A stretch of 48,375 nt of DNA from a virus. Positions 3,183 through 48,375 of this stretch are shown one piece after another. Every line of letters starts with the position of its first letter. The stretch's first letter is position 1. The DNA is taken from positions 1 through 48,375 of IMG/VR virus record IMGVR_UViG_3300033984_000057. The stretch is one strand, 5' to 3'. The notes beneath the pieces were generated by a model. That model worked only from the letters and a program-made list of their open reading frames with translations, was not told the DNA's origin and did no database searches. Position numbers and translations under genes: made by a program.

Positions 3183-6100
3183 TTAACCCATTTTTCTTTT
3201 TCTTTTCTTAATTTTTGCTTCTCTGCGTTTTATAGCGGCTTCTCTTTTTATTCTCATTCTTTCGACCATTGGCAAAGCTCTGATAGAATCTTTTGTACGT
3301 TCTCTTGTTTCAGCTCCTTTAATTTTACCTTCTTCTTTACGAACTTCTTTTGCTTTAGCTTCTATAGCAACGTCACCTCCTGTTTCTTCAATTCCAACAC
3401 TTCTAGGGTTCCATCCTAATCCAACCATTACACGTTGCCATGCTTGATTTTGTGAGTTAAACATTTGAGAAGTATTTTCTACTTTATTAACAAGCCTTTC
3501 CATAGGGAAATTAACAGTTGCCTCAACTCCTTTACCAACTATAGAATACATTGGGCCTAAGTGAACTCTTCCATCTTGCATAACACCCCAACCTCTTTCT
3601 TTTATAAGGTCTTTATCAAACTTTGTTTGTTGTAGTCCACTGTATATTTTTCTTACTTTAGATCCAATTGGTGGAGATATATTTGTAGCTTCCAATACTA
3701 CTTTTGTATAATCCGCTTTATACCCTTTTGGTTCCTCTTCCATGTATTTCTTAATTACATTTTTCAATGTAACCAATACACCACCAAGCAATCCAGTACC
3801 TCTTACAACGGAGTCAACAACACCGCTTGCTACTTCTATTATTTTTTTATCTTTTTCTTTTAATCTTTTCTTTTTAACCTCGTCTTCTTCGTCTTCATCA
3901 TGGAATAATACTGCGAACAATCCTTGTTGTAATACAGAAAACATTAAGTTTTGTATTGCAAGATAATAAGTTATTTTTGCAATATGTGTTTTAGCATCAC
4001 CTCTACCGTTTTTAAGATCTAAGAAAGATTTCTTAACTATCCTTGATTGTTGCATTGCCGTATTCTGGAATGTTAATAACAATCTACCAGCACCGCTTGC
4101 TTGTTGTTTAGATATGTCTCTAGGATCACCTGATTGTTGTGTTTCATCAGATACTTTAGTAAAATCACTCCATGCTGCAGCTTCTGCTTCTTGCTCTGTT
4201 AACCCTTCTTTTAAGTAAGATTTAATTCTATTTCTATAAAATGGAGCCCCCCCTGATGCAATAGCAAAACTATCTGCTAATTGCGTTGGCGTATATCCAA
4301 TCTTTAATAAGTATGATATTACAGCTGTTGGTTTATTACGGCTAGTAGCTGCAGCATTAGCAATTTCAGCAGCAGCAACATCTTCTTTAAGACCACCGCG
4401 TCTTTCTTTCATTTTATCTGAATTCCAAATGCGTGCAAAATCTGCCCAATATTGTGGTTGATTAGCAAAAGCCGCTCCAGCTGCTATAGGATTGTTATCT
4501 CTTAAGTTTAAGAAATTGACTGCTCCTATTAGTTGCAATGCAGCAGATCTTGTATTTAAGAACATTATAGTTCCTGTAGATCCGCTAACCCAATCAAGCC
4601 ACTTATTAGTTATCTTATCTTTACCTTGACTTCTATTTTTACCAGTGGTCATTCTATATAAAACATCTTCTATAGACTCTCTAACATCAGTTCCGTATAT
4701 AGCTTCAACCTTATTAATGTTAGGTCCAACTAATTTACCATTATCCCATTTACCAAACATCTCTTGAGCATTGTCAATAAACTCTGCTAAGAATTGTTTT
4801 CTACCATCGCCTTCTGTTAAGTTGTGAAGATCAGATATAATTGTACTCGCGTCCCAGTTTTCGCCAGGTTTAACCCAACCATTTCCTTGTCTACCAAGCA
4901 CAACTAATCCAGACATAAAGTCATATAATTCTGTATCATTATTAACTAAAGAAGTTAGCTCGCTTGTATCGCGTTTGGATAGCCCTGGGATCTCCACATC
5001 TGATCCATTCCACATTGCAACACGCAAAGCTTGATCGTATGTAAAGTTTCCATCTGGGGTCAATTTTTCAAGCTTCTTTGCAATACCTGGAAATGCTTTT
5101 ATTAACTCCTTATAATTGTTTTTAATAGATTGTCTCGCAGCATCCATCAAATCATTACCATTAGCATAAGGTTTTAACAATGCATCCGAAAAGAATTTCA
5201 TTTGCGCTTCACCTTCAATACCTTTACCTAAGAAATTATATAATAATAATTCAAAATCCGCTGCTGATGCTGGAACATATAGATCAAATAAGTTTTTATT
5301 TGCTCCTTTTCTTTTTGCTACAATGTCAGAGTATTCAATTGCAGGGCCAATGCCTGTATTCTTAGATATTATCTTATTGAATTCTGAAGATATAGTTTTA
5401 CTAAATTTAATCTTTGCTTGTTGTATAGGTGATTTTATGTCAACAACATTTAAAACATTTTTAACTTGGTTGTTTTGATTATTAAATGTTTCTATATTTC
5501 CAGCAGTGCCTTTTTTTGAAATTATATATACTCCATTATCGTAAAAAGAATTCCACCCAATTTTATTAGCAATAACATTTGCCATTGCATTATATAGTTT
5601 TCTTCTACTTGGCTCTTTTGCTGCAAAAACAAATGTTTCAATATTTTTATTTTTTGCATATTCTATTACCCCATTTATAACAACTCCAAATACTTCTGCG
5701 GCATTTCCAGTTCCTGTTATTTCTGTACCACCTTTATATCCTTCAAATATTAATTGATAAGTTTTACCTGTTCTTTCTTGTAATATATCGTCTTTATTAA
5801 GATTATATTTTTCTATTAATGTATTTATAGTAGGAATTAATAATTCAGGATAATCAATATAAGCGGAATCCGCTAATTCTATTTTGTATGATTTGCCTTT
5901 AACTTCAAAATCAGCAAAACTTGAATCTTCATAATAAGTCCACTTTAAATCTTGTTTAGAAGTTAAAGAAAACTTAACCATTGCTTGTTGCACTTTTGAA
6001 TCTACTCCCGAAATATTTAAAGCTTTCTTAACTGCCTCAACGTTTTGTATCGCATCATCAGCAAAGTAAAAGTCATTATATCCTTCTGCCGCTTTTGCAG

Positions 6101-9100
6101 TCATCCAATCCGCTTTTGATTGTGCTAAACTGCTTCCTAAACCAGTTATATTTTCCAAAGGTATATCAATACCAATAGAAGATAAAAACTCATGAATTGG
6201 ACCCGCGGCATTAGCAGGACGAGCCGTAAGTATAAAAAAGTTTTCAGGACCAAACTTGCCAATCATTTTCTTCATCTTTTCAACCATTGGGCCTGGTTTT
6301 CCATCAACAACTTTACTAAATTCAGAGAAGTCAAATACCGCTCCAGCATCTAACATATCCCCGCCTTCTTTAGCAAACTCTTCCGCATTCAATTTACCAG
6401 TCGACCCATCAGACATTGTGTATAGCACACTCCCTGAAGTTAAACCAACAGTATCATCAAAGTCAAAAACAGAAATACCCTTTAACGTTTTAGACGGCTG
6501 AATAGATTTAACTACTGCAGATATTGTTTCATTATTAAGGCGAGTTTGCCTTGCTCCAATTCCAGCAGTAGCCTCTTTAACTAATCTATCAAATCTTGCT
6601 TTTGACTTGTACATGCTAGTAATATCATGCAAATACTTCTTAAACGGCACTAAAGCTTCTACAAACTCTAAGTTTTCATTTCTATTTTTGCCTGTATATT
6701 TTAATTTAACATCAGTCAAAGCTTGATCAGCTTGCTTTGGAATAAGATTAATTTTTAATGTATTTATATAATTTTTTAGTTGAGGTAATGTAATTTCTTT
6801 ATTTAAATATTTACGTAATTCACTTTTTAAATCATTTATTGTAGTATTATGTTCTAATATTACATCTTTAGCTTTTAAATTACTAGTATAAAACCCCATT
6901 TTATACATTTTTCTTAAAGACCCTTGCATATCAGTCCCTAACAATGTTATATGGTTTAATCCTTTTTCTATGTTTTTAGCACCACCTAAATCTCTATAAT
7001 AAGTAAGTGTTTTTAATACATGATTTGAAGCTAAATCTGCCTCAGAATTTATAATATCTATTAATTTTACAACGTCTGTAGAATTTTTAGATAAAACAGT
7101 TTTTATGTTTGTAATCGGCATATAAGAATCAATTCTTTTGCTATCTACAAATATATAAGATCTAGGTTCACCATTAACTATTTTTTCTTCAATACTAATT
7201 ATATTGTCATTGAATAATTGATTTGTTTTTTCTATCCCTAGTATTTTGTCAAGAGCTGGCTGTAGTACGTATGTAAGGTATTCCTTATTAGTCGTTATAA
7301 AATTACCGCTATTTGTTTTGTAGGATTTAACTTCAGCTCTTAAAAAAGTTGTTAATTCTTCTATTAATTTTTTATCATTACTTTTATTTGCTTTTATCAA
7401 TCTTTCTAAAGCTTCTTCAGATTCAATAGACCCAAGTCTATTAGCTAAAGATCCTAGATTTTCTTGTTTAGCAGCCTCTAACCTTCTAGCGTAAATTAAA
7501 TATTGACTTAATACAGGCGATTTAGTTTTAAAATTTATATCTCTTTTATCATAACCTAAATAAGTCTTTATTGTACTATATTCATTAGGTGTTAATGTTT
7601 TAATCCAATCAAATAAATCAGTCTTTGCTTCAGAGATAGCTAGTTTTTCTTTTGCGCTTTTTGAATATTTTACATTACCTCTTTCCGCTTGTCTTATAAC
7701 CTCTATAGCAAACGTGCCTGTAATTTCTACACCTTGGCGCTCTTGATTTGCTTTGAAAGCTTCTGATATTGGACCATCATTTTCAATGTCCTCATTAATA
7801 ATGTCAAAGGCGGTTTCCTCTGCAACAGCTTTTGCTAAAGATTCTTTTCTACCTCTTAATGGATTGCCATCTGGCCCAATTATTTGATCAAGAAATTGCG
7901 AGTCTGATATATTATTATTAACATTAGGTAATCTTCTAACTAATTCCGCCCCTGAAGTTCTTCCTGCTTGATCTGTTGTCGTTTTCTCTCTATCAATCTT
8001 TTTTCCAACCCAATCTGGAAAGTTAGTCCATTTGCCATCAATTTGTTTTTGAATAGCAATAGGCATTCCTCCTTGACCATCTTTACCCATTAACCACGTA
8101 GTAGTCATATTCTCTAGAACATACTGTTTGTTATCTATTAACCAATTTTGAAGTTGATTATCTTTTTTACCACCCATTGCGGTTTTAACATCAATATCTA
8201 ATTGTTTTCCAACTTCGTCTCTAATTTCAGAAATTAAAGGCGTTACTGTTTTGTTTAATGATATTGGTGCATCAATCCTAGATTTTATTGTTCTAATTAT
8301 AGTTACAATCTTCTTTGTGACTGTTTCTAAGACTTCTGGCGCAAAAACTTTTGATTCTAATGCATTCTTATACTTTGGCTTTTCTTTTGCCGCCTCAGTA
8401 AATCCTTGATCGGCCGTTTCAGTCGCCATTAAACCTTTTTCTTCAGTCGCGTCTTTACTAAATTGTTTATCTAATATTCTTCTTGATGTGGCAATTGCTC
8501 TAAATGGCAAATACTTGTTTATCCAAGCTGCCAAAGGAATAGACTTATTATAACTTTTAATAAGATCCAAAATTCCACCTACTCCGGTTTCTATTTCATC
8601 TGTGAATAAGACTCTGTCAAATCCAGGAGCGTTTTTACGTTTATCTACTATTTTATTTGTAATAGGTTTGAATAGCTTTATGATATCGTACGCTCCGCTT
8701 TCTCCTTTTGTTTCGTATATTTTTTGAACTTTATCAGAAGATATTGACCCACTTTCGTTCTTAATTATTTCTTTAACAACATCTTCTTCGCTTACTTCTT
8801 TTTTAATTGTAGGCTGCGCAGTTGCCTCTTTTGCAATTGCTCTTTTAAGTTCGCCTTCTAATTTTCTAACTTCTTGATCGTATTCATCTGGATCATAATC
8901 CCCCTCATTTTCCTCTAAGTCTACAAGTTTTTGCTTAACTAATTCAACAGGTGATTTAGATAAAGCAATTTTTTCCGGGTCTCCTCCAAAAGCTTTTCCG
9001 GCAAATTTAATTAAATTAGAAGGTTCCTTTTTGCCAAAATGAGCCTCCTTATTATAATCTTTTATAAACTGGTATACATTTGCACCTTCATTTTCTTTGA

Positions 9101-12100
9101 ATTTTGGAGCCCAATTTGGTAACAAATTATTTACAAAATTACGCGTTGCATTTAAAGAATCTTTTGGCAATTCAACACCGTCTGAGCTTAAATCCGATAA
9201 TGCATTTAATGCTTCCTCGTAGTAGTCAGTGTCTTTTATTAATTCACCTTTTTCGTCTCTTAACCGTAACCCTTTTTTATCTTTCTTAGAATAACTAGCA
9301 TCAATACGAGCGGTTACTAAAGCATGCAAGTTAGCGTCATATTTTTCTAAGTAATTTAGTAGGTCTGCCCCCGCTTTGTCTACACCTTTTTGATCTATAA
9401 AAGCTTTTTTTACAGCTGAATGTAAAACTTCATGAGAACCAACTCCTGTTCTACCATTTAAAGCAGAATTTTTTATATGCACTAAAGCCACATCTTTAGT
9501 TACTTCAATGCCATTTGAATCTATCTCTGTAACGGTGGCATTAGCCCCTTCAATAGTTCCGTCTTCAATTCCTTTTTTAAATTCTGAAATTGACTTTGGA
9601 TTTGACTTAGCTTTGTCTGTTTTTTTATATGCTTCAACTATAGAGGCGTTTGCATCAGCTCCTTCAAAAGATAATAAGTCAATATTAACATCATTGTTTT
9701 TTGCAAATTCTTGAGCATTATTAATACCATCTTTTATAGCGGAGGTATAATGGTTTTCAGCATAATTTTCAAAAGCTTTTTGCTTAATTACCTTTTCTGA
9801 AACATTTTTTTCATTAGATAATTCTAACTCTTGTTTTGCTTCACTTAATAATTCTTGAGATTTAACCGCATCTAAATTATTAAAATTAGTGGCGATTTGA
9901 TTAATGCTAGTTTGTTGCATTTTTTTATTATACATACCATAGCCATTTGTAAGATCAAAATGGAATCTAGCTTCATTATTGCTTTTAATATTTTCCGCCT
10001 TAATATTTGGGTCTGTTAATAATGTTTCTCTTTGACTTATTAATTCATTAAATTTTCCTCTATAATGCCCTTCTAATACCTTTAATTGTGCAGGTTGTAA
10101 ACTGCCATCATTGACAGCTTCTAAAAAATCTTTATTTACGCTTCTAATTTGTCTATTAACATCCCCTATTTGAGTAGCTTGTTCTAATGTTAAATCAACT
10201 CCAAGCCTGTTTATAATATTGCTTTCAATACTTTCGCTTTCGTCTATTAATTCAGTTACTAATTTTTGTACCGCAGGAGTTTGCTCCGGCAAAGGTATAC
10301 CTTGATTTAAAGTATATCCAGATACACCTGTTAATTCACTTATTTGTTTAGCAATTTCTTGTATTCTTTTACTTTGTTTTTTTTCAGCTAATTCGCTAAC
10401 AACTGCTCTTTTTAATACCTTTACAGTATCTACTCCTCCAAACCCAGTACCCATTATACCACCTTGAGCAAACGATTCTAACGATTCAGTGGCAACATCA
10501 AAGAAGTTTTTATCTTCACCAAGGATTGCATAGTCAATAAAATTATTTGACAAAGTTGTTCCTAATTCAGATAACCCTTCAGTCTTAAAGTTTTTAATAT
10601 TAGTTTTCCCAGCCCAAATTAAACCTTCTTGTAACGTTTTTTTAGGCAATAATTTTGTAGCATCCCCTAAGCCCTTTAAAATTTTTAATGTTCCTAATAT
10701 TTCAAAAGTTACTTCCGATGCCCCATATAATGCTTTTGCCCCGAATTTTTTATATTCAGGTAAGCTTAATAATGCTTCATCTTTTGCTATCTGCTGTTCT
10801 AACCCCGCTTGTTCAAATGGATTAGTTGTATTTTTTAAATTATAATAATTTTCGCTTAGCCTTGTTTTAGCGTCTTCCGCTTCAATAGCCATTTGAGTAG
10901 ATTTACCGCCATAACCACTAGCAAAGAATAAAGGCATTGCTGCTGGCCCAGTAAAAGCCATGCCTATTGATGGCACATTATTTACTATTCCACTCATTAA
11001 CCAATTACCAGCGTCATCAAAACTTGTTATTTTGTTAATACCTACGGCTTTTTGATATTCTTTTTGTTTTTTATTCATCTCACCGGCTAAATAAACAAAG
11101 CCAGAGGTATCTCTTTTCATTACTTCTTCATGAGTAGAACCTGTTAAAATAGCACTGCCATAAGCAGATAAATCTTTTAATCCCACGCCCACATTAGCTA
11201 CGGTTGATTTTGTTGCTGTTACAAGTTGACTAAATCGATTATAATTTGCTCCAAAACTTTCAATAGCAGGTAACATAACCTCATTTGTAGTATTAGTTTC
11301 TGTTTCTAATTGCTTTTGTCTATCACCTAAATTATTTTGTTCTGCTTGTAAACTTAAAAATTCATCTTGCAATAATTTTCCTTCTTCAATTGTTTTAGAA
11401 GGGGCTAATTTATAGTCTTTAAATTTAGTTTCAAATTCTTTTGCTCTAACATTATAGCCGGCAATGGCTTGATCAAAGGCTTTTACGGCATGTTTATTTT
11501 CGTTTATTGCTTCTTGACCTATTATTTGTAGATCTTTTCTTTCTGATGGTAAAAGTGTCCTAGAATATTCTGTAGAAGCTCTTTCTATAAAATCAGATTT
11601 TCTATTTTTATCCCAAGCAATAATTTTTTCTTCATTCAGTTCGGGTAATATACCTGTTTTTTTCCAAGTTTTATATAAATTATAATCATCTGGATTTTCA
11701 AAATCTTGTTTTGTTATACCCGTATAAGCCGCTCCAAAACTTCCTCCAATTCCTAATGATGAAGTGTTAGATTGTAGGTCTTGCTCTAAATCTTTAAATT
11801 TAGCGACCATTGCGTTTCTAGCTTGTTTTGTTTTTTCTTCAGGGGCTAAAGAAGGAGGAGTTATTTTTGATAAATAATTTGGGTTTGTTTTACTTACTCT
11901 TTGCTTTGCTTTACTAATATAATTTATATCTTTTATCTCAGAAATATATTCGTTCATTCCCTTTTGATCTTTTGGATCAAAATCTCTACCAACTACTAAT
12001 TTTGCCTCTTCTCCACCCGTAGTAGGGCCTGGTTTTGCATCTATAAGTTTAAAATTAAAGGTATCTGAAAAATTATTTTGCGATACTTCAATTCCTAACC

Positions 12101-12671
12101 TATTTAATTTTTTGTTTAGTTTTGAAACCGTATTTACTTCGCTTTCGTCCTCTAAATCATACTTTAAAACAGTATCTGGATTATCAAAACTTATTTCGTC
12201 TTTTGCTACTTTAGTTCTATATTCAGCTGTTTTATTTAATTCTAATTGTTTTTTTGCTTGAGAATCTTGCTCAGCTACTTTTTTGGTAATTATTTTTTTA
12301 TTAGCGTCTTTCCACATAATAGAAGAACTGCCAATACCTGTTTTTATTTGGTTTTTGTCTTCAACTAAACTAGACGCAAAGTCATCAACACCGCTAGTTT
12401 TTAGTAAATTAACTTTTGTAGATACCGATGAAGGTTTTGCCGATTTGGATACCGTACTTTTTACAGTTGCACCCGCATCCTCCCTTGCAACTGACTTTCG
12501 CTTTCCCGGCACTTTAGTTGTTACTTCCTCAGTTGCCTTTTCTTTTTTCTTTTTTGGTTTAATTCCTCTATTACTAATAAATTCGTCTAAAGTCATATTC
12601 TCTTTCTTTGCAGATGAAGCTAATTCGTCTTCCGTATACGTATACCCATTTGGGTGAATATATTCATTCAT
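3183..12671 (-). CDS. giant 3162-residue multidomain virion/ejection protein
   Basis: The largest gene, about a fifth of the window and last in the late block. Seen in order: a Lys/Ser/Thr-rich N-terminus; long coiled regions with small hydrophobic Gly/Ala segments near residues 480-600; a zincin motif HEVLH at 1080-1084; a complete HAD-phosphatase signature (DFDDT at 2070-2074, LTARP at 2148-2152, later Lys, and FADD ending at 2206); a segment near 2275-2385 with KEPSRRKLYNAM resembling phage GNAT-type acetyltransferases; two hydrophobic stretches near 2899-2925 and 2945-2970; and a very basic C-terminus. It follows the putative ejection proteins and the muzzle genes. In podoviruses this slot holds proteins injected with the DNA, and such 'polyvalent' giant proteins can carry several enzymatic domains. 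I infer an injected virion protein that may cross the envelope and act on host targets. It shows no T7 gp16-like lysozyme motif and no DxDGD motif of YonO-like RNA polymerases. Confidence 0.85.
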   Translation of the reverse strand: MNEYIHPNGYTYTEDELASSAKKENMTLDEFISNRGIKPKKKKEKATEEVTTKVPGKRKSVAREDAGATVKSTVSKSAKPSSVSTKVNLLKTSGVDDFASSLVEDKNQIKTGIGSSSIMWKDANKKIITKKVAEQDSQAKKQLELNKTAEYRTKVAKDEISFDNPDTVLKYDLEDESEVNTVSKLNKKLNRLGIEVSQNNFSDTFNFKLIDAKPGPTTGGEEAKLVVGRDFDPKDQKGMNEYISEIKDINYISKAKQRVSKTNPNYLSKITPPSLAPEEKTKQARNAMVAKFKDLEQDLQSNTSSLGIGGSFGAAYTGITKQDFENPDDYNLYKTWKKTGILPELNEEKIIAWDKNRKSDFIERASTEYSRTLLPSERKDLQIIGQEAINENKHAVKAFDQAIAGYNVRAKEFETKFKDYKLAPSKTIEEGKLLQDEFLSLQAEQNNLGDRQKQLETETNTTNEVMLPAIESFGANYNRFSQLVTATKSTVANVGVGLKDLSAYGSAILTGSTHEEVMKRDTSGFVYLAGEMNKKQKEYQKAVGINKITSFDDAGNWLMSGIVNNVPSIGMAFTGPAAMPLFFASGYGGKSTQMAIEAEDAKTRLSENYYNLKNTTNPFEQAGLEQQIAKDEALLSLPEYKKFGAKALYGASEVTFEILGTLKILKGLGDATKLLPKKTLQEGLIWAGKTNIKNFKTEGLSELGTTLSNNFIDYAILGEDKNFFDVATESLESFAQGGIMGTGFGGVDTVKVLKRAVVSELAEKKQSKRIQEIAKQISELTGVSGYTLNQGIPLPEQTPAVQKLVTELIDESESIESNIINRLGVDLTLEQATQIGDVNRQIRSVNKDFLEAVNDGSLQPAQLKVLEGHYRGKFNELISQRETLLTDPNIKAENIKSNNEARFHFDLTNGYGMYNKKMQQTSINQIATNFNNLDAVKSQELLSEAKQELELSNEKNVSEKVIKQKAFENYAENHYTSAIKDGINNAQEFAKNNDVNIDLLSFEGADANASIVEAYKKTDKAKSNPKSISEFKKGIEDGTIEGANATVTEIDSNGIEVTKDVALVHIKNSALNGRTGVGSHEVLHSAVKKAFIDQKGVDKAGADLLNYLEKYDANLHALVTARIDASYSKKDKKGLRLRDEKGELIKDTDYYEEALNALSDLSSDGVELPKDSLNATRNFVNNLLPNWAPKFKENEGANVYQFIKDYNKEAHFGKKEPSNLIKFAGKAFGGDPEKIALSKSPVELVKQKLVDLEENEGDYDPDEYDQEVRKLEGELKRAIAKEATAQPTIKKEVSEEDVVKEIIKNESGSISSDKVQKIYETKGESGAYDIIKLFKPITNKIVDKRKNAPGFDRVLFTDEIETGVGGILDLIKSYNKSIPLAAWINKYLPFRAIATSRRILDKQFSKDATEEKGLMATETADQGFTEAAKEKPKYKNALESKVFAPEVLETVTKKIVTIIRTIKSRIDAPISLNKTVTPLISEIRDEVGKQLDIDVKTAMGGKKDNQLQNWLIDNKQYVLENMTTTWLMGKDGQGGMPIAIQKQIDGKWTNFPDWVGKKIDREKTTTDQAGRTSGAELVRRLPNVNNNISDSQFLDQIIGPDGNPLRGRKESLAKAVAEETAFDIINEDIENDGPISEAFKANQERQGVEITGTFAIEVIRQAERGNVKYSKSAKEKLAISEAKTDLFDWIKTLTPNEYSTIKTYLGYDKRDINFKTKSPVLSQYLIYARRLEAAKQENLGSLANRLGSIESEEALERLIKANKSNDKKLIEELTTFLRAEVKSYKTNSGNFITTNKEYLTYVLQPALDKILGIEKTNQLFNDNIISIEEKIVNGEPRSYIFVDSKRIDSYMPITNIKTVLSKNSTDVVKLIDIINSEADLASNHVLKTLTYYRDLGGAKNIEKGLNHITLLGTDMQGSLRKMYKMGFYTSNLKAKDVILEHNTTINDLKSELRKYLNKEITLPQLKNYINTLKINLIPKQADQALTDVKLKYTGKNRNENLEFVEALVPFKKYLHDITSMYKSKARFDRLVKEATAGIGARQTRLNNETISAVVKSIQPSKTLKGISVFDFDDTVGLTSGSVLYTMSDGSTGKLNAEEFAKEGGDMLDAGAVFDFSEFSKVVDGKPGPMVEKMKKMIGKFGPENFFILTARPANAAGPIHEFLSSIGIDIPLENITGLGSSLAQSKADWMTAKAAEGYNDFYFADDAIQNVEAVKKALNISGVDSKVQQAMVKFSLTSKQDLKWTYYEDSSFADFEVKGKSYKIELADSAYIDYPELLIPTINTLIEKYNLNKDDILQERTGKTYQLIFEGYKGGTEITGTGNAAEVFGVVINGVIEYAKNKNIETFVFAAKEPSRRKLYNAMANVIANKIGWNSFYDNGVYIISKKGTAGNIETFNNQNNQVKNVLNVVDIKSPIQQAKIKFSKTISSEFNKIISKNTGIGPAIEYSDIVAKRKGANKNLFDLYVPASAADFELLLYNFLGKGIEGEAQMKFFSDALLKPYANGNDLMDAARQSIKNNYKELIKAFPGIAKKLEKLTPDGNFTYDQALRVAMWNGSDVEIPGLSKRDTSELTSLVNNDTELYDFMSGLVVLGRQGNGWVKPGENWDASTIISDLHNLTEGDGRKQFLAEFIDNAQEMFGKWDNGKLVGPNINKVEAIYGTDVRESIEDVLYRMTTGKNRSQGKDKITNKWLDWVSGSTGTIMFLNTRSAALQLIGAVNFLNLRDNNPIAAGAAFANQPQYWADFARIWNSDKMKERRGGLKEDVAAAEIANAAATSRNKPTAVISYLLKIGYTPTQLADSFAIASGGAPFYRNRIKSYLKEGLTEQEAEAAAWSDFTKVSDETQQSGDPRDISKQQASGAGRLLLTFQNTAMQQSRIVKKSFLDLKNGRGDAKTHIAKITYYLAIQNLMFSVLQQGLFAVLFHDEDEEDEVKKKRLKEKDKKIIEVASGVVDSVVRGTGLLGGVLVTLKNVIKKYMEEEPKGYKADYTKVVLEATNISPPIGSKVRKIYSGLQQTKFDKDLIKERGWGVMQDGRVHLGPMYSIVGKGVEATVNFPMERLVNKVENTSQMFNSQNQAWQRVMVGLGWNPRSVGIEETGGDVAIEAKAKEVRKEEGKIKGAETRERTKDSIRALPMVERMRIKREAAIKRREAKIKKRKRKMG

Positions 12672-35820: not shown

Positions 35821-36072
35821 TTATTTTTTAAATATTCTATTGTATATTTTGTTTTTATTCTTTGTTCCAGGTTTAAACTCTAATACAGCACTCCCTGGAA
35901 AGTTAATTTCTTCTTCTCCCGGTTGCATTAGTTTAGAATTACCTAAATTATCAATACCTAAAACGGGTTCATCAACGTTTTTCATTGTGATGTTCCCGCT
36001 TGGTATTAGATTATAAGGTCTATCTTTATCAGGACTATTTTTTTTATAACCTGCTGTTGATAGATTTTTCAT
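35821..36072 (-). CDS. small conserved phage protein (NLIPSGNITM type)
   Basis: An 83-residue protein carrying NLIPSGNITMKNVDEPVLGI, DNLGNSKLMQPGEEEINFPG and ends in a basic KNKNK stretch. This core is common in small proteins of phages of aquatic Bacteroidota and is usually placed among virion-associated genes. It has no signal peptide, membrane helix or catalytic motif. It is separated by no gap from the upstream gene at 36073 and so is probably translated in chain. The exact role is unknown. Confidence 0.7.
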   Translation of the reverse strand: MKNLSTAGYKKNSPDKDRPYNLIPSGNITMKNVDEPVLGIDNLGNSKLMQPGEEEINFPGSAVLEFKPGTKNKNKIYNRIFKK

Positions 36073-36916: not shown

Positions 36917-36960
36917 AATTAAATAATATTAGATTTATATAGTATTATTATTACGCGCAT

Positions 36961-46065: not shown

Positions 46066-46614
46066 TTATTTTTTTTTACTTTTTAATTTAGAGCCTACAA
46101 TAGCTTTTTGATTTAACGGGGTAACAACTGCATCCCCAAATTTTGCAGCATTCGAAGCCTTACTTGCTGTATTAACTTTTGAAGTAACCTTATTAACCTT
46201 ATCGGCTACTTTAGCAACTCTTTCAACAGCACTAAGTGATTTAGCTATTCTAAACCCACCCTTTAATAACTTAGGTATCTTACCGATTACAGGTAATGCG
46301 CCCAGAGGCTCAGTGACATCGTCCCAATTAGTTTTATTATCACTCCACGCTTTCTTTACATCAGGGTAAGATGAAAAACCCGTAGGGTCCATTAACTGTG
46401 TCGCTGCTTTTTCAACTTTCCCTTGTCTATCCCAATCTTGGGATACTTTACTACCAATATCAATCTGCTTTTTATTTGCTTTAGCATTAGACACGGTTTT
46501 ATTAGATTCATTCAATGAACTCTGTATATTTTTTTTCTGACTACCAGGTTTGAATTGATCCATAGGATCTTTCTCTTGATATAAAGGTGATTGCGATCTT
46601 AGTTTAAATGCCAT
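46066..46614 (-). CDS. first gene of the late block, RSQSPLYQ N-terminal motif
   Basis: A 182-residue basic protein starting MAFKLRSQSPLYQEKDPM, almost the same leader as the following gene. A Lys/Gln/Asn-rich stretch leads to LMDPTGFSSYPDVKKAW and a region (EPLGALPVIGKIPKLLKGG) that resembles the pre-domain found before toxins or pore-forming segments in polymorphic-toxin and phage virion proteins. The C-terminal half is an amphipathic helical stretch (VERVAKVADKVNKVTSKVN). It is the most upstream gene of the minus-strand block, so its promoter should lie in the 46615-46860 gap. The function is unknown. Confidence 0.68.
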   Translation of the reverse strand: MAFKLRSQSPLYQEKDPMDQFKPGSQKKNIQSSLNESNKTVSNAKANKKQIDIGSKVSQDWDRQGKVEKAATQLMDPTGFSSYPDVKKAWSDNKTNWDDVTEPLGALPVIGKIPKLLKGGFRIAKSLSAVERVAKVADKVNKVTSKVNTASKASNAAKFGDAVVTPLNQKAIVGSKLKSKKK

Positions 46615-46919
46615 AATTCTTTTTGATTATAGTATATACAATTACGCATTGTAATCAATTCTCACAGTGTGACATTAGCCTACTATTTTTATATATAACT
46701 ACCTTACGTCACTCTTTTCGTTCATTTATTATAACCAACCGACGTATGTTTATTATAATAAGATACAAAAAAAAATATTATAAAAAATTTTTATCAGTGT
46801 TGAAAAAATGTTGTTACAAATATATATATAAGGGGTTACACCCTACGTTTCACATTGGAATTTGGAAAGGAAAACGATTTGGGTTTACCCCACCCCCCGG
46901 CCGTTTTTCGACTTTGTAC
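46615..46919. other. divergent intergenic region, left part
   Basis: No convincing gene. An A/T-rich stretch with short dyads upstream of the late block: ATTAC at 46641-46645 with GTAAT at 46651-46655, and TCACAGTGTGA at 46662-46672. The latter is an 11-base palindrome with one central base. Also an A-run and a T/A-rich tract near 46764-46793, and a 10-bp direct repeat AAACGATTTG at 46872-46881 and 46921-46930. It should hold the promoter(s) of the minus-strand block, but I cannot identify a consensus. Confidence 0.5.
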
Positions 46920-47260
46920 GAAACGATTTGCCTTTTTCTGTGCGCGTGTGATACGATCTGGTTATTCTATGTACGATATGCATGGCAGTGTGATACGTTG
47001 CGTATGGTGTGATTGTATGTGTGCTGTGGTGCGCGCGTGTGATGTGTACGATATGTTATACGATGCGTATGGTATGCTGGCTAGCAGTGTTACCTCATCG
47101 CGCTGCATCATGTCTGGTGTTGTGTGCCGTGCCGTGTGCTAGTGCTGGTCTCCTGTGCGTTGCCGTTACCGTGTGCCGATACGTGTATGTATGTATTACG
47201 ATACGATACGATACGGGTTACGTATGTATACGTATTACGATACGATACGTGGAGCGCAGC
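46920..47260. repeat. G+T-rich non-coding region with dispersed short repeats
   Basis: The base make-up changes abruptly. In 46981-47160, by hand count, G and T make up about 69 percent and A only about 13 percent of the plus strand, unlike the A/T-rich remainder. Short words recur: GTGTGATACG at 46946 and 46988, GTACGATATG at 46971 and 47046, GCGCGTGTGAT at 46942 and 47033, GCGTATGGT at 47000 and 47065. At the right an 18-bp direct repeat GTATTACGATACGATACG lies at 47193-47210 and 47232-47249, and a palindrome ACGTATGTATACGT at 47220-47233 is between them. The open frames here give Cys/Val/Arg-rich peptides unlike real proteins. Function unknown: an origin, packaging site or RNA are candidates. 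Confidence 0.6.
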
Positions 47261-47267
47261 GTAGCGT

Positions 47268-47331
47268 GTATAGCAACGCGTATAGCACTTCCCTACAGTC
47301 TTAGTACGGGGTGATTGTGATAATATATATG
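47268..47331 (+). promoter_or_regulatory. leader module copy A
   Basis: Two GTATAGCA words (47268-47275, 47280-47287) are followed six bases on by the conserved 38-bp block at 47294-47331: TACAGTCTTAGTACGGG, a variable stretch, then TGATAATATATATG. It lies 20 bases before the ATG of the first small plus-strand gene. See the findings for the comparison of three copies. It is most likely a promoter with an upstream operator. Confidence 0.65.
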
Positions 47332-47351
47332 TAACAAATAAATAATAAGAC

Positions 47352-47507
47352 ATGAACAGAGTAGAAGAATTAATAGTACAAAAGTATCCATATCAATTGG
47401 AAGAGATATTAACACAGATAGAGGTTATGAAACAAGACTACGATCAAGACATGTTCTTGGAAGAAGACATCATCGAATCAATACTAATAGAATTAAATAT
47501 AATATAA
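47352..47507 (+). CDS. 51-residue hypothetical protein (early)
   Basis: A short gene from ATG at 47352 to TAA at 47505-47507, too small for a routine length cut-off. The protein is helical and acidic (NRVEELIVQKYPYQLEEILT, then DYDQDMFLEEDIIESILIEL), likely a small soluble protein. It follows leader copy A by 20 bases and has the A-rich AATAATAAGAC stretch before the start. The next small gene begins one base after its stop. Small acidic early proteins often inhibit host factors, but that is a guess here. Confidence 0.62.
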   Translation: MNRVEELIVQKYPYQLEEILTQIEVMKQDYDQDMFLEEDIIESILIELNII

Positions 47508-47508
47508 C

Positions 47509-47670
47509 ATGAGAAAGTTCACACACAATGAGAAAGTAACAATTATTAAACGTGTAATTGTCGGTTATCAAATCGTACTCACAAGTATGTTCGTTGTTGG
47601 ATTTACGAGAGTAGTGATCGGACTAATCATGGGAGAGTTCTCGAATGTAACGTTCGGGATTTATTACTAA
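47509..47670 (+). CDS. 53-residue single-pass membrane protein (early)
   Basis: A gene from ATG at 47509 to TAA at 47668-47670, one base after the preceding stop. The protein has a basic N-terminus (RKFTHNEKVTIIKR) and a hydrophobic stretch from about residue 17 to 41 (VIVGYQIVLTSMFVVGF) and a short tail. Probably an inner-membrane protein with the N-terminus in the cytoplasm. It could be an early host-interacting protein. Its stop is followed by the hairpin and leader copy B. Confidence 0.6.
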   Translation: MRKFTHNEKVTIIKRVIVGYQIVLTSMFVVGFTRVVIGLIMGEFSNVTFGIYY

Positions 47671-47681
47671 TACAAACCGGA

Positions 47682-47695
47682 GGTGTGTAAACACC
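47682..47695 (+). terminator. short hairpin before leader copy B
   Basis: GGTGT (47682-47686) and ACACC (47691-47695) form a five-pair stem with a GTAA tetraloop, twelve bases after the stop of the membrane protein. It has no T-run, so it may be a weak terminator or an RNA processing or stabilising element. Confidence 0.45.
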
Positions 47696-47701
47696 GAAGG
47701 T

Positions 47702-47894
47702 GTATAGCATTTGCGTATAGCAACTATAGATATTATTTATAATAATTTATATTTTAATAAATTTTATTTATTATAGATATTATTTATAATAATTTATATT
47801 TCTATAAATTTTATTTATAATTATATTTTTATATTATATTATATTAATTAATTTCTTACAGTCTTAGCACGGGCAGTAAATGATAATATATATG
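47702..47894 (+). promoter_or_regulatory. leader module copy B
   Basis: GTATAGCA words at 47702-47709 and 47715-47722, then 134 bases of A/T-rich insert, then the conserved block at 47857-47894 with TACAGTCTTAGCACGGG and TGATAATATATATG. The ATG of the next gene is 38 bases after the block. The insert holds a 47-bp tandem repeat and separates two elements that are adjacent in the other copies. Confidence 0.65.
47725..47818 (+). repeat. A/T-rich 47-bp tandem repeat, two copies
   Basis: Units at 47725-47771 and 47772-47818 differ at only two positions. They begin TATAGATATTATTTATAATA. They contain almost only A and T, and lie between the two parts of leader copy B. Probably arose by slippage or duplication; a bending or unwinding element is possible. 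Confidence 0.85.
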
Positions 47895-47932
47895 AATCAA
47901 ATAAATAATAATAATTAAATAAATTAAATCAA

Positions 47933-48163
47933 ATGAAAGAATTTAAAAGCTTGCAAGAAACAGTAGAAGCATTAATAGCAGAAAGCAATTATGGATCAGA
48001 TGCTAATTTTAAAATAGCAGAAGATACAGAAGATTATATAGCTGATGAATCAGGTCTGTTAAGAGACTGGGATCATATAACAGAAAAATATACTGAAACC
48101 CAATCAGATTATTTATTCAGAATCTATGATTTCTTTGAATATAATATATTTGAAACTGAATAA
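47933..48163 (+). CDS. 76-residue acidic hypothetical protein (early)
   Basis: A 76-residue protein (KEFKSLQETVEALIAESNYG) that is strongly acidic (Asp/Glu about one in four) and has several aromatic residues at the C-terminus (YLFRIYDFFEYNIFETE). It follows leader copy B and ends before the hairpin of copy C. Small acidic proteins can mimic DNA or bind basic host proteins, but there is no direct evidence. The start has an A-rich stretch before it. Confidence 0.68.
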   Translation: MKEFKSLQETVEALIAESNYGSDANFKIAEDTEDYIADESGLLRDWDHITEKYTETQSDYLFRIYDFFEYNIFETE

Positions 48164-48179
48164 ATAAAATAAACCTAAA

Positions 48180-48192
48180 GGGGGAAACCCCC
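48180..48192 (+). terminator. GC hairpin before leader copy C
   Basis: GGGGG (48180-48184), AAA loop, CCCCC (48188-48192), 16 bases after the stop of the 76-residue gene. There is no T-run. It has the same place in the module as the hairpin before copy B. Confidence 0.5.
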
Positions 48193-48198
48193 AAGGGT

Positions 48199-48266
48199 GT
48201 ATAGCATTTGCGTATAGCAAAAAATCCTTACAGTCTAGGCACGAGGTCAAAATGATAATATATATG
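48199..48266 (+). promoter_or_regulatory. leader module copy C
   Basis: GTATAGCA at 48199-48206 and 48212-48219, then nine bases, then the conserved block at 48229-48266 with TACAGTCTAGGCACGAG and TGATAATATATATG. The ATG of the last partial gene lies 37 bases downstream. This copy is the compact form with no insert. Confidence 0.65.
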
Positions 48267-48303: not shown

Positions 48304-48375
48304 ATGACTTTAAAAATCAATCAAAATTTCAAATCAATTATTAATAATCAATTAATAAATTCTAACAAATTAAGT
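48304..48375 (+). CDS. start of a further early gene, truncated by the window end
   Basis: ATG at 48304 opens a frame that continues to the window edge (24 codons). The peptide begins MTLKINQNFKSIINNQLINS. It is Asn/Ile-rich, preceded by an A/T-rich stretch and leader copy C at the usual distance. The function cannot be judged. Confidence 0.5.
   Translation, partial: MTLKINQNFKSIINNQLINSNKLS

Follow-up and report, generated by a model that had tools for sequence, protein, structure and literature searches.

Bacillus phage SPO1 is an example of a phage-encoded sigma-factor cascade, and the promoter of phage T7 has the form TAATACGA-N9-G(+1). Early transcription in Bacteroidota phages is poorly described. 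The sigma motifs of F. psychrophilum include TAnnTTTG, TAnnTTGY, a CGT box and a sigma-54 motif (PMC9723704). For short words that are repeated along a phage genome, the closest precedents appear to be the stoperators of cluster A mycobacteriophages (PMC9283540) and the site-specific nicks of phage tf, in which 14 nicks fall in a 9-bp word confined to a single strand, with 11 nicks in the same genome half (PMC3517423).

Here we analyze a 48,375-nt stretch (the window) that is part of the genome of a Bacteroidota phage and in which repeated leader modules precede small early genes. The promoter motif in these modules resembles SPO1-type cascades in the presence of a sigma-70-family phage sigma factor and of a phage-specific promoter class lacking the host consensus, but it is 39 bp long with three conserved sub-blocks and an invariant spacer, and recognition by sigma is something that we infer. 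Like flavobacterial sigma-A promoters (PMC9723704), the leaders are AT-rich and place the promoter a short distance before the start codon, and some relatives carry TTGCA at the upstream element. Unlike those promoters, they have no TAnnTTTG box, and their central ACGA and GATAATATAAATG are foreign to the flavobacterial class.

Leader modules at the start of the early region

The minus strand of the window carries the structural genes, among them those for terminase and portal. The early region begins near 47.3 kb and is truncated where the record ends; the part of the genome missing from this 48 kb record can be seen in relatives of 62–68 kb. The closest record with an accession is MW202828 (terminase identity 64%), followed at greater distance by Elemovirus, Maribacter phage Panino and Cellulophaga phages including phi18:3 (Pachyviridae) and phi38:1 (Pervagoviridae). 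Elemovirus, Pachyviridae and Pervagoviridae are the best-known named neighbours of the clade. Features of the leader modules are listed in Table 1.

Table 1. Positions of leader-module features, adjoining early genes and the isolated word in the window
Feature	Position	Strand	Remarks
GTATAGCA word pair, copy A	47268..47287	+	as 10-mers 47266-47275, 47278-47287
Early promoter motif, copy A	47293..47331	+	37.6 bits
Small early gene, 51 aa	47352..47507	+	ATG 20 nt past motif; similar ORF in relative G001
Small early gene, 53 aa	47509..47670	+	similar ORF in G001
Short hairpin GGTGTGTAAACACC before word pair B	47682..47695		
GTATAGCA word pair, copy B	47702..47722	+	
AT-rich tandem repeat between pair B and block B	47725..47818		
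Early promoter motif, copy B	47856..47894	+	44.8 bits
Small early gene, 76 aa	47933..48163	+	ATG 38 nt past motif
Short hairpin GGGGGAAACCCCC before word pair C	48180..48192		
GTATAGCA word pair, copy C	48199..48219	+	
Early promoter motif, copy C	48228..48266	+	46.1 bits
Next early gene, start (MTLKINQNF...)	48304..48375	+	runs off window; similar 58-aa ORF in G001
Isolated TGCTATACAC in 3162-aa virion-region gene	6418..6427	-	

The initial annotation described three copies of a module, each with two GTATAGCA words followed by a 38-bp block of invariant spacing and variable middle. The three blocks are real (47294-47331, 47857-47894 and 48229-48266) and share one ungapped motif, with exactly 24 bases from TACAGTC to TGATAATATATATG in 3/3 blocks. 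Exact matches to the right-hand half of the block occur in the window at these three sites only, and a reversed-pattern control returned 0. The spacing is indeed invariant, but the middle is not freely variable, as it contains a conserved A-n-Y-A-C-G-A at a fixed distance. We also confirmed the GTATAGCA pairs, which start at 47268/47280 (A), 47702/47715 (B) and 48199/48212 (C) with start-to-start distances of 12, 13 and 13. A seventh GTATAGCA is found at 6420; the count of 7 in the window compares with 1.97 ± 1.34 in shuffled sequence, and no shuffle reached 7.

Hairpins are present in copies B and C, each 3' of the preceding stop codon, and fold modestly better than shuffles (z -2.6 for 47682-47695 and z -2.0 for 48180-48192). 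The components of the proposed repeated unit are present, but copy B is less compact: its pair lies 134 bases upstream of the block. Because these 134 bases, with an AT-rich tandem repeat, separate the two elements, pair and block do not form a rigid unit. Positions 46900-47260 of the window are GT-rich and non-coding, a possible replication or packaging site, and GATACG occurs in eight copies in 46600-47290 and once in the rest of the window.

An early promoter conserved across the clade

The block recurs in related phages, with 10–14 copies of the motif per genome in the 62–68 kb relatives. An exact scan for the motif gave 24 stretches in IMG/VR, and with a looser search 13/13 records proved to contain it, on a single strand in each. 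Scored with a profile at a cut-off of 18 bits, five relatives and the window contained 68 sites, each of them on the early strand, compared to 0 in reversed genomes; six further genomes added 48 sites, with 0 above threshold on the other strand. When spacing was left free, the gap from ACGR to GATAATA was 9 in 109 cases and no other gap was seen more than 3 times, except for a gap of 15 (11 cases), which we ascribe to an additional ACG that the motif itself contains. The gap from TACA to ACGR was 8 in 104 cases. The resulting consensus is cTTrCArnC-N2-AnYACGA-N9-GATAATATAaATGwAA. The motif often begins 0–5 nt from the previous stop codon, and the median distance from motif to start codon is 22 nt.

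We also searched with the tandem GTATAGCA pair alone, leaving out the promoter sequence. This yielded 44 stretches, 33 of them new, and at the new loci the promoter core was present within 160 nt after 42/43 word pairs. Across 293 kb of new loci there were 191 forward copies of the core vs 1 reverse copy. Including loci found by the word pair, the broader consensus reads TTrCArAC-N2-AnYACGa-N9-GATAATATanrTG. The module of pair plus promoter is therefore clade-wide, retained by related phages in differing gene contexts.

These data bear out the proposal of a phage-specific promoter with invariant spacing: across the clade the motif lies on one strand, upstream of early-gene starts, where -10/-35-like elements are conserved. 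The block was also correctly described as unlike the flavobacterial TTG/TAnnTTTG consensus, and the corresponding arrangement (TTG, 17–23 bp, TAnnTTTG) is absent from the blocks. We rejected host sigma-A promoters as an explanation because matches to host-type -33/-7 elements are not enriched in the early sense strands of the relatives. The interpretation of the blocks as early promoters of this phage clade is strongly supported by sequence comparison. At up to 3 mismatches the motif is absent from MW202828 and elemo, and the word is absent from MW202828, elemo, phi18:3 and phi38:1. Repeated early leaders of other kinds occur in MW202828 and phi38:1.

A phage sigma factor as candidate reader of the promoter

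Relatives encode a sigma-70-family protein (~255 aa, regions 2 and 4, phrog_351) in their early region, in the part of the genome that lies outside the window. It was detected in 14/17 module-bearing records vs 0/4 relatives without the motif, and the three module-bearing records without a match possibly lack one because they are fragments. In ten genomes the sigma gene is preceded, at a distance of 0.9–2.8 kb, by a motif variant, and the sigma operon itself would thus be headed by a variant of the promoter. Similarity to the G001 promoter rises with sigma identity (rho 0.88, n = 20), a correlation that is confounded by phylogeny. In one lineage with ~55% sigma identity, GATAATATAA is kept and the upstream part of the promoter has changed.

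The absence of a polymerase motif, the co-occurrence of sigma and module, and the co-divergence of promoter and sigma lead us to favour host core RNA polymerase carrying the phage sigma-70-family factor as the reader of the motif, by a slight lean. GATAAT would then be the -10-like element and TTrCA the -35/-33-like element. Taken as a whole, the account in which host polymerase and phage sigma read the early promoters of the clade, and the words form a separate element, is probable. The promoter is sharply defined and clade-wide, and together with the candidate phage sigma it makes a directly testable pair.

Sigma-70 promoters normally tolerate changes in spacer length, and rigid spacing is more typical of single-subunit polymerases or sigma-54. 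The main difficulties for recognition by the phage sigma are that this motif tolerates no spacer change and that sigma, if it reads the earliest promoters, must be supplied beforehand. The same sigma could instead serve late genes, for which a weak candidate motif, CGTAATA-N-TATATA, exists. Such a division is part of an alternative that we consider rather unlikely, in which host RNA polymerase with a host sigma factor would be assisted by an injected or early phage activator on the ACGA part of the motif, leaving the phage sigma for late genes. The sigma gene is located downstream within the early cascade, an order known from classical sigma cascades, and this is consistent with the alternative, as is the gene for a conserved HTH protein that adjoins the sigma gene. 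However, the motif matches none of the sigma motifs that the text of PMC9723704 describes for F. psychrophilum, and the lack of enrichment of host-type sites in early sense strands also argues against a host sigma factor.

The initial annotation suggested a different reader, namely a virion-carried phage RNA polymerase, as in crAss-like or N4-like phages. The absolutely rigid spacing across 39 bp points in this direction, as do the location of the promoters ahead of the earliest genes, their mismatch to every known host sigma motif, and an ACGA-N9-G geometry that resembles the T7 promoter; a giant virion-region protein also exists. However, among proteins of 120 aa or more from the relatives and the window, none has a conserved polymerase motif, whether DxDxD or the T7-type motifs B and C. 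The giant protein, which is encoded inside the window, has no conserved DxDxD and no Pfam or PHROG polymerase match, and two of its conserved regions are predicted, with low confidence, to be almost all helix. A search for PF00940 was empty, as were its controls, which gave no signal either. Motif scans, Pfam, PHROGs, a PDB profile search and two structure predictions yielded nothing usable for a virion or T7-like polymerase. Although a strongly diverged polymerase could escape motif and family searches of this kind, a virion-carried reader is quite improbable, and we retain host polymerase with phage sigma.

A polar array of words in the early half

The 10-mer TGCTATACAC is the reverse complement of the extended GTATAGCA word. 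It is the top or near-top over-represented word of the early half in every relative, with 10–21 copies per genome on the early strand, where its 8-mer core would be expected ~0.5 times; the late half of the relatives has none on that strand. The words form an array of about 1 per kb that is limited to the early half and flips orientation at the first promoters. Reversed words are concentrated where the early region begins, which is also the position of the leaders in the window, and most relatives have one reverse-oriented word in the giant gene. The flanks of the words are not conserved. Gaps between words average 1.07–1.2 kb in 4/5 genomes and 1.4 kb in the fifth; even spacing reaches significance in G001, G003 and G006, is less marked in G002 and is non-significant in G005, and these tests are not independent because homologous sites are common to the genomes. 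All of the further records checked contain words (14/14, 5–18 each), with zero in the controls. The array is a strong signal in viruses from many samples.

Most words (80/105) lie inside coding sequences and 25 are intergenic. A protein-level origin was rejected, as the words occupy two reading frames and 34 distinct peptide contexts in addition to the 25 intergenic sites; use of two reading frames together with intergenic positions indicates that they are nucleotide-level signals. We also rejected a host-derived word such as Chi or KOPS, since Bacteroidota MAGs of 2.5–3 Mb contain 0–3 copies of TGCTATACAC each.

The words of the leader modules had been read as an operator of the adjacent promoter. 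They are conserved beside promoters, and some directly abut them, but the distance from word to promoter varies from -5 to +54 nt, and most promoters, notably those further downstream, have no word within 120 nt. This variable distance also makes an activator of fixed geometry bound at the words unlikely. The words at the leaders are the start of an array on the scale of the genome, and a simple operator reading gives way to this larger and more interesting feature. The GTATAGCA pairs at copies A–C would be a separate conserved element, the outward-pointing start of the polar TGCTATACAC array, which is presumably bound by a phage protein.

Candidate functions of the words

Stoperators of a phage repressor, which would block both initiation and elongation, are a possible but doubtful function for the words. 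As is reported for L5-type phages, the words are asymmetric sites located at promoters and dispersed downstream, co-oriented with early transcription except for the flipped pairs at the first promoters, and certain words abut promoters directly. In cluster A mycobacteriophages (PMC9283540), the sites are likewise short, asymmetric and transcription-oriented, and occur both at promoters and dispersed. Those stoperators are 13 bp, whereas the words here are 10 bp, mostly intragenic and roughly regular in spacing, with flipped pairs at the first promoters. The scarcity of words near most promoters, the opposite direction of the pairs, the variable word–promoter distance and the mainly intragenic location all argue against stoperators, and a non-exhaustive search identified no repressor or integrase.

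The words could also mark positions at which one strand of virion DNA is nicked in a programmed manner, as happens in phages tf and T5, a role that we judge unlikely. Polarity, half-genome bias and mismatch intolerance of the words all match tf. As with the interruptions of tf, phiKMV-like phages and T5 (PMC3517423), a short word lies on one strand and is concentrated in one half of the genome, the exception being the reversed words near the first promoters. However, the word itself is different and unlike known nick words, the flipped copies close to where the early region begins would mean nicks on both strands beside promoters, and no nickase was identified.

Known primase sites are ~3 nt. 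The words are far longer, which weighs against a role as replication elements, with initiator sites at an origin by the first promoters and lagging-strand starts along the early half. Their polarity points outward from one region, their gaps are roughly regular at 1.0–1.2 kb in 3/5 genomes, and a primase-helicase is conserved at 75–91% in most word-carrying genomes, all of which are consistent with replication. The late half must be replicated too, yet it has no array, and we give this role little credence, on a par with nicking. As a further tentative possibility, ranked with stoperators, a phage protein may read the TGCTATACAC array for a new genome-scale purpose, such as control of elongation that depends on orientation, a programme of strand nicks or replication starts in a set order, with the three leaders of the window as the origin of the array.

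Additional features of the window and its relatives

The virion-region protein of 3162 aa (window 3183-12671, minus strand) has no Pfam or PHROG match; a HAD-type motif, FDFDDT, is conserved in it. The weak candidate late-gene promoter occurs at 36955 and 23765 of the window, on the minus strand before late genes, and also precedes the corresponding genes in several relatives.

A conserved non-coding element of the early region, GRCCTGnYnTTGAAATAnnGTCGGAAGAGTAGACTCCGTCCTAC, is found in L033 (G001) at ~36000-36060 of the contig and also in G002, G003, G005, G006, G014, G015 and G017. It is not among the Rfam matches at gathering threshold for the loci searched. In several genomes it starts 1–3 nt after an early promoter, and it is possibly a small RNA. 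The early region of G003 encodes a tmRNA (Rfam gathering threshold, L036:18464-18819).

Among the relatives without the motif, MW202828.1 has a perfect 16-bp palindrome, GTGTCGTTAACGACAC, in 13 copies at 44264-55154, mostly just upstream of early genes, where it may act as an operator. The early region of phi38:1 (KC821614.1) has 11 copies of a AACACTATCAAA-like leader word, all on one strand and usually located after a stop codon and before the following ATG.
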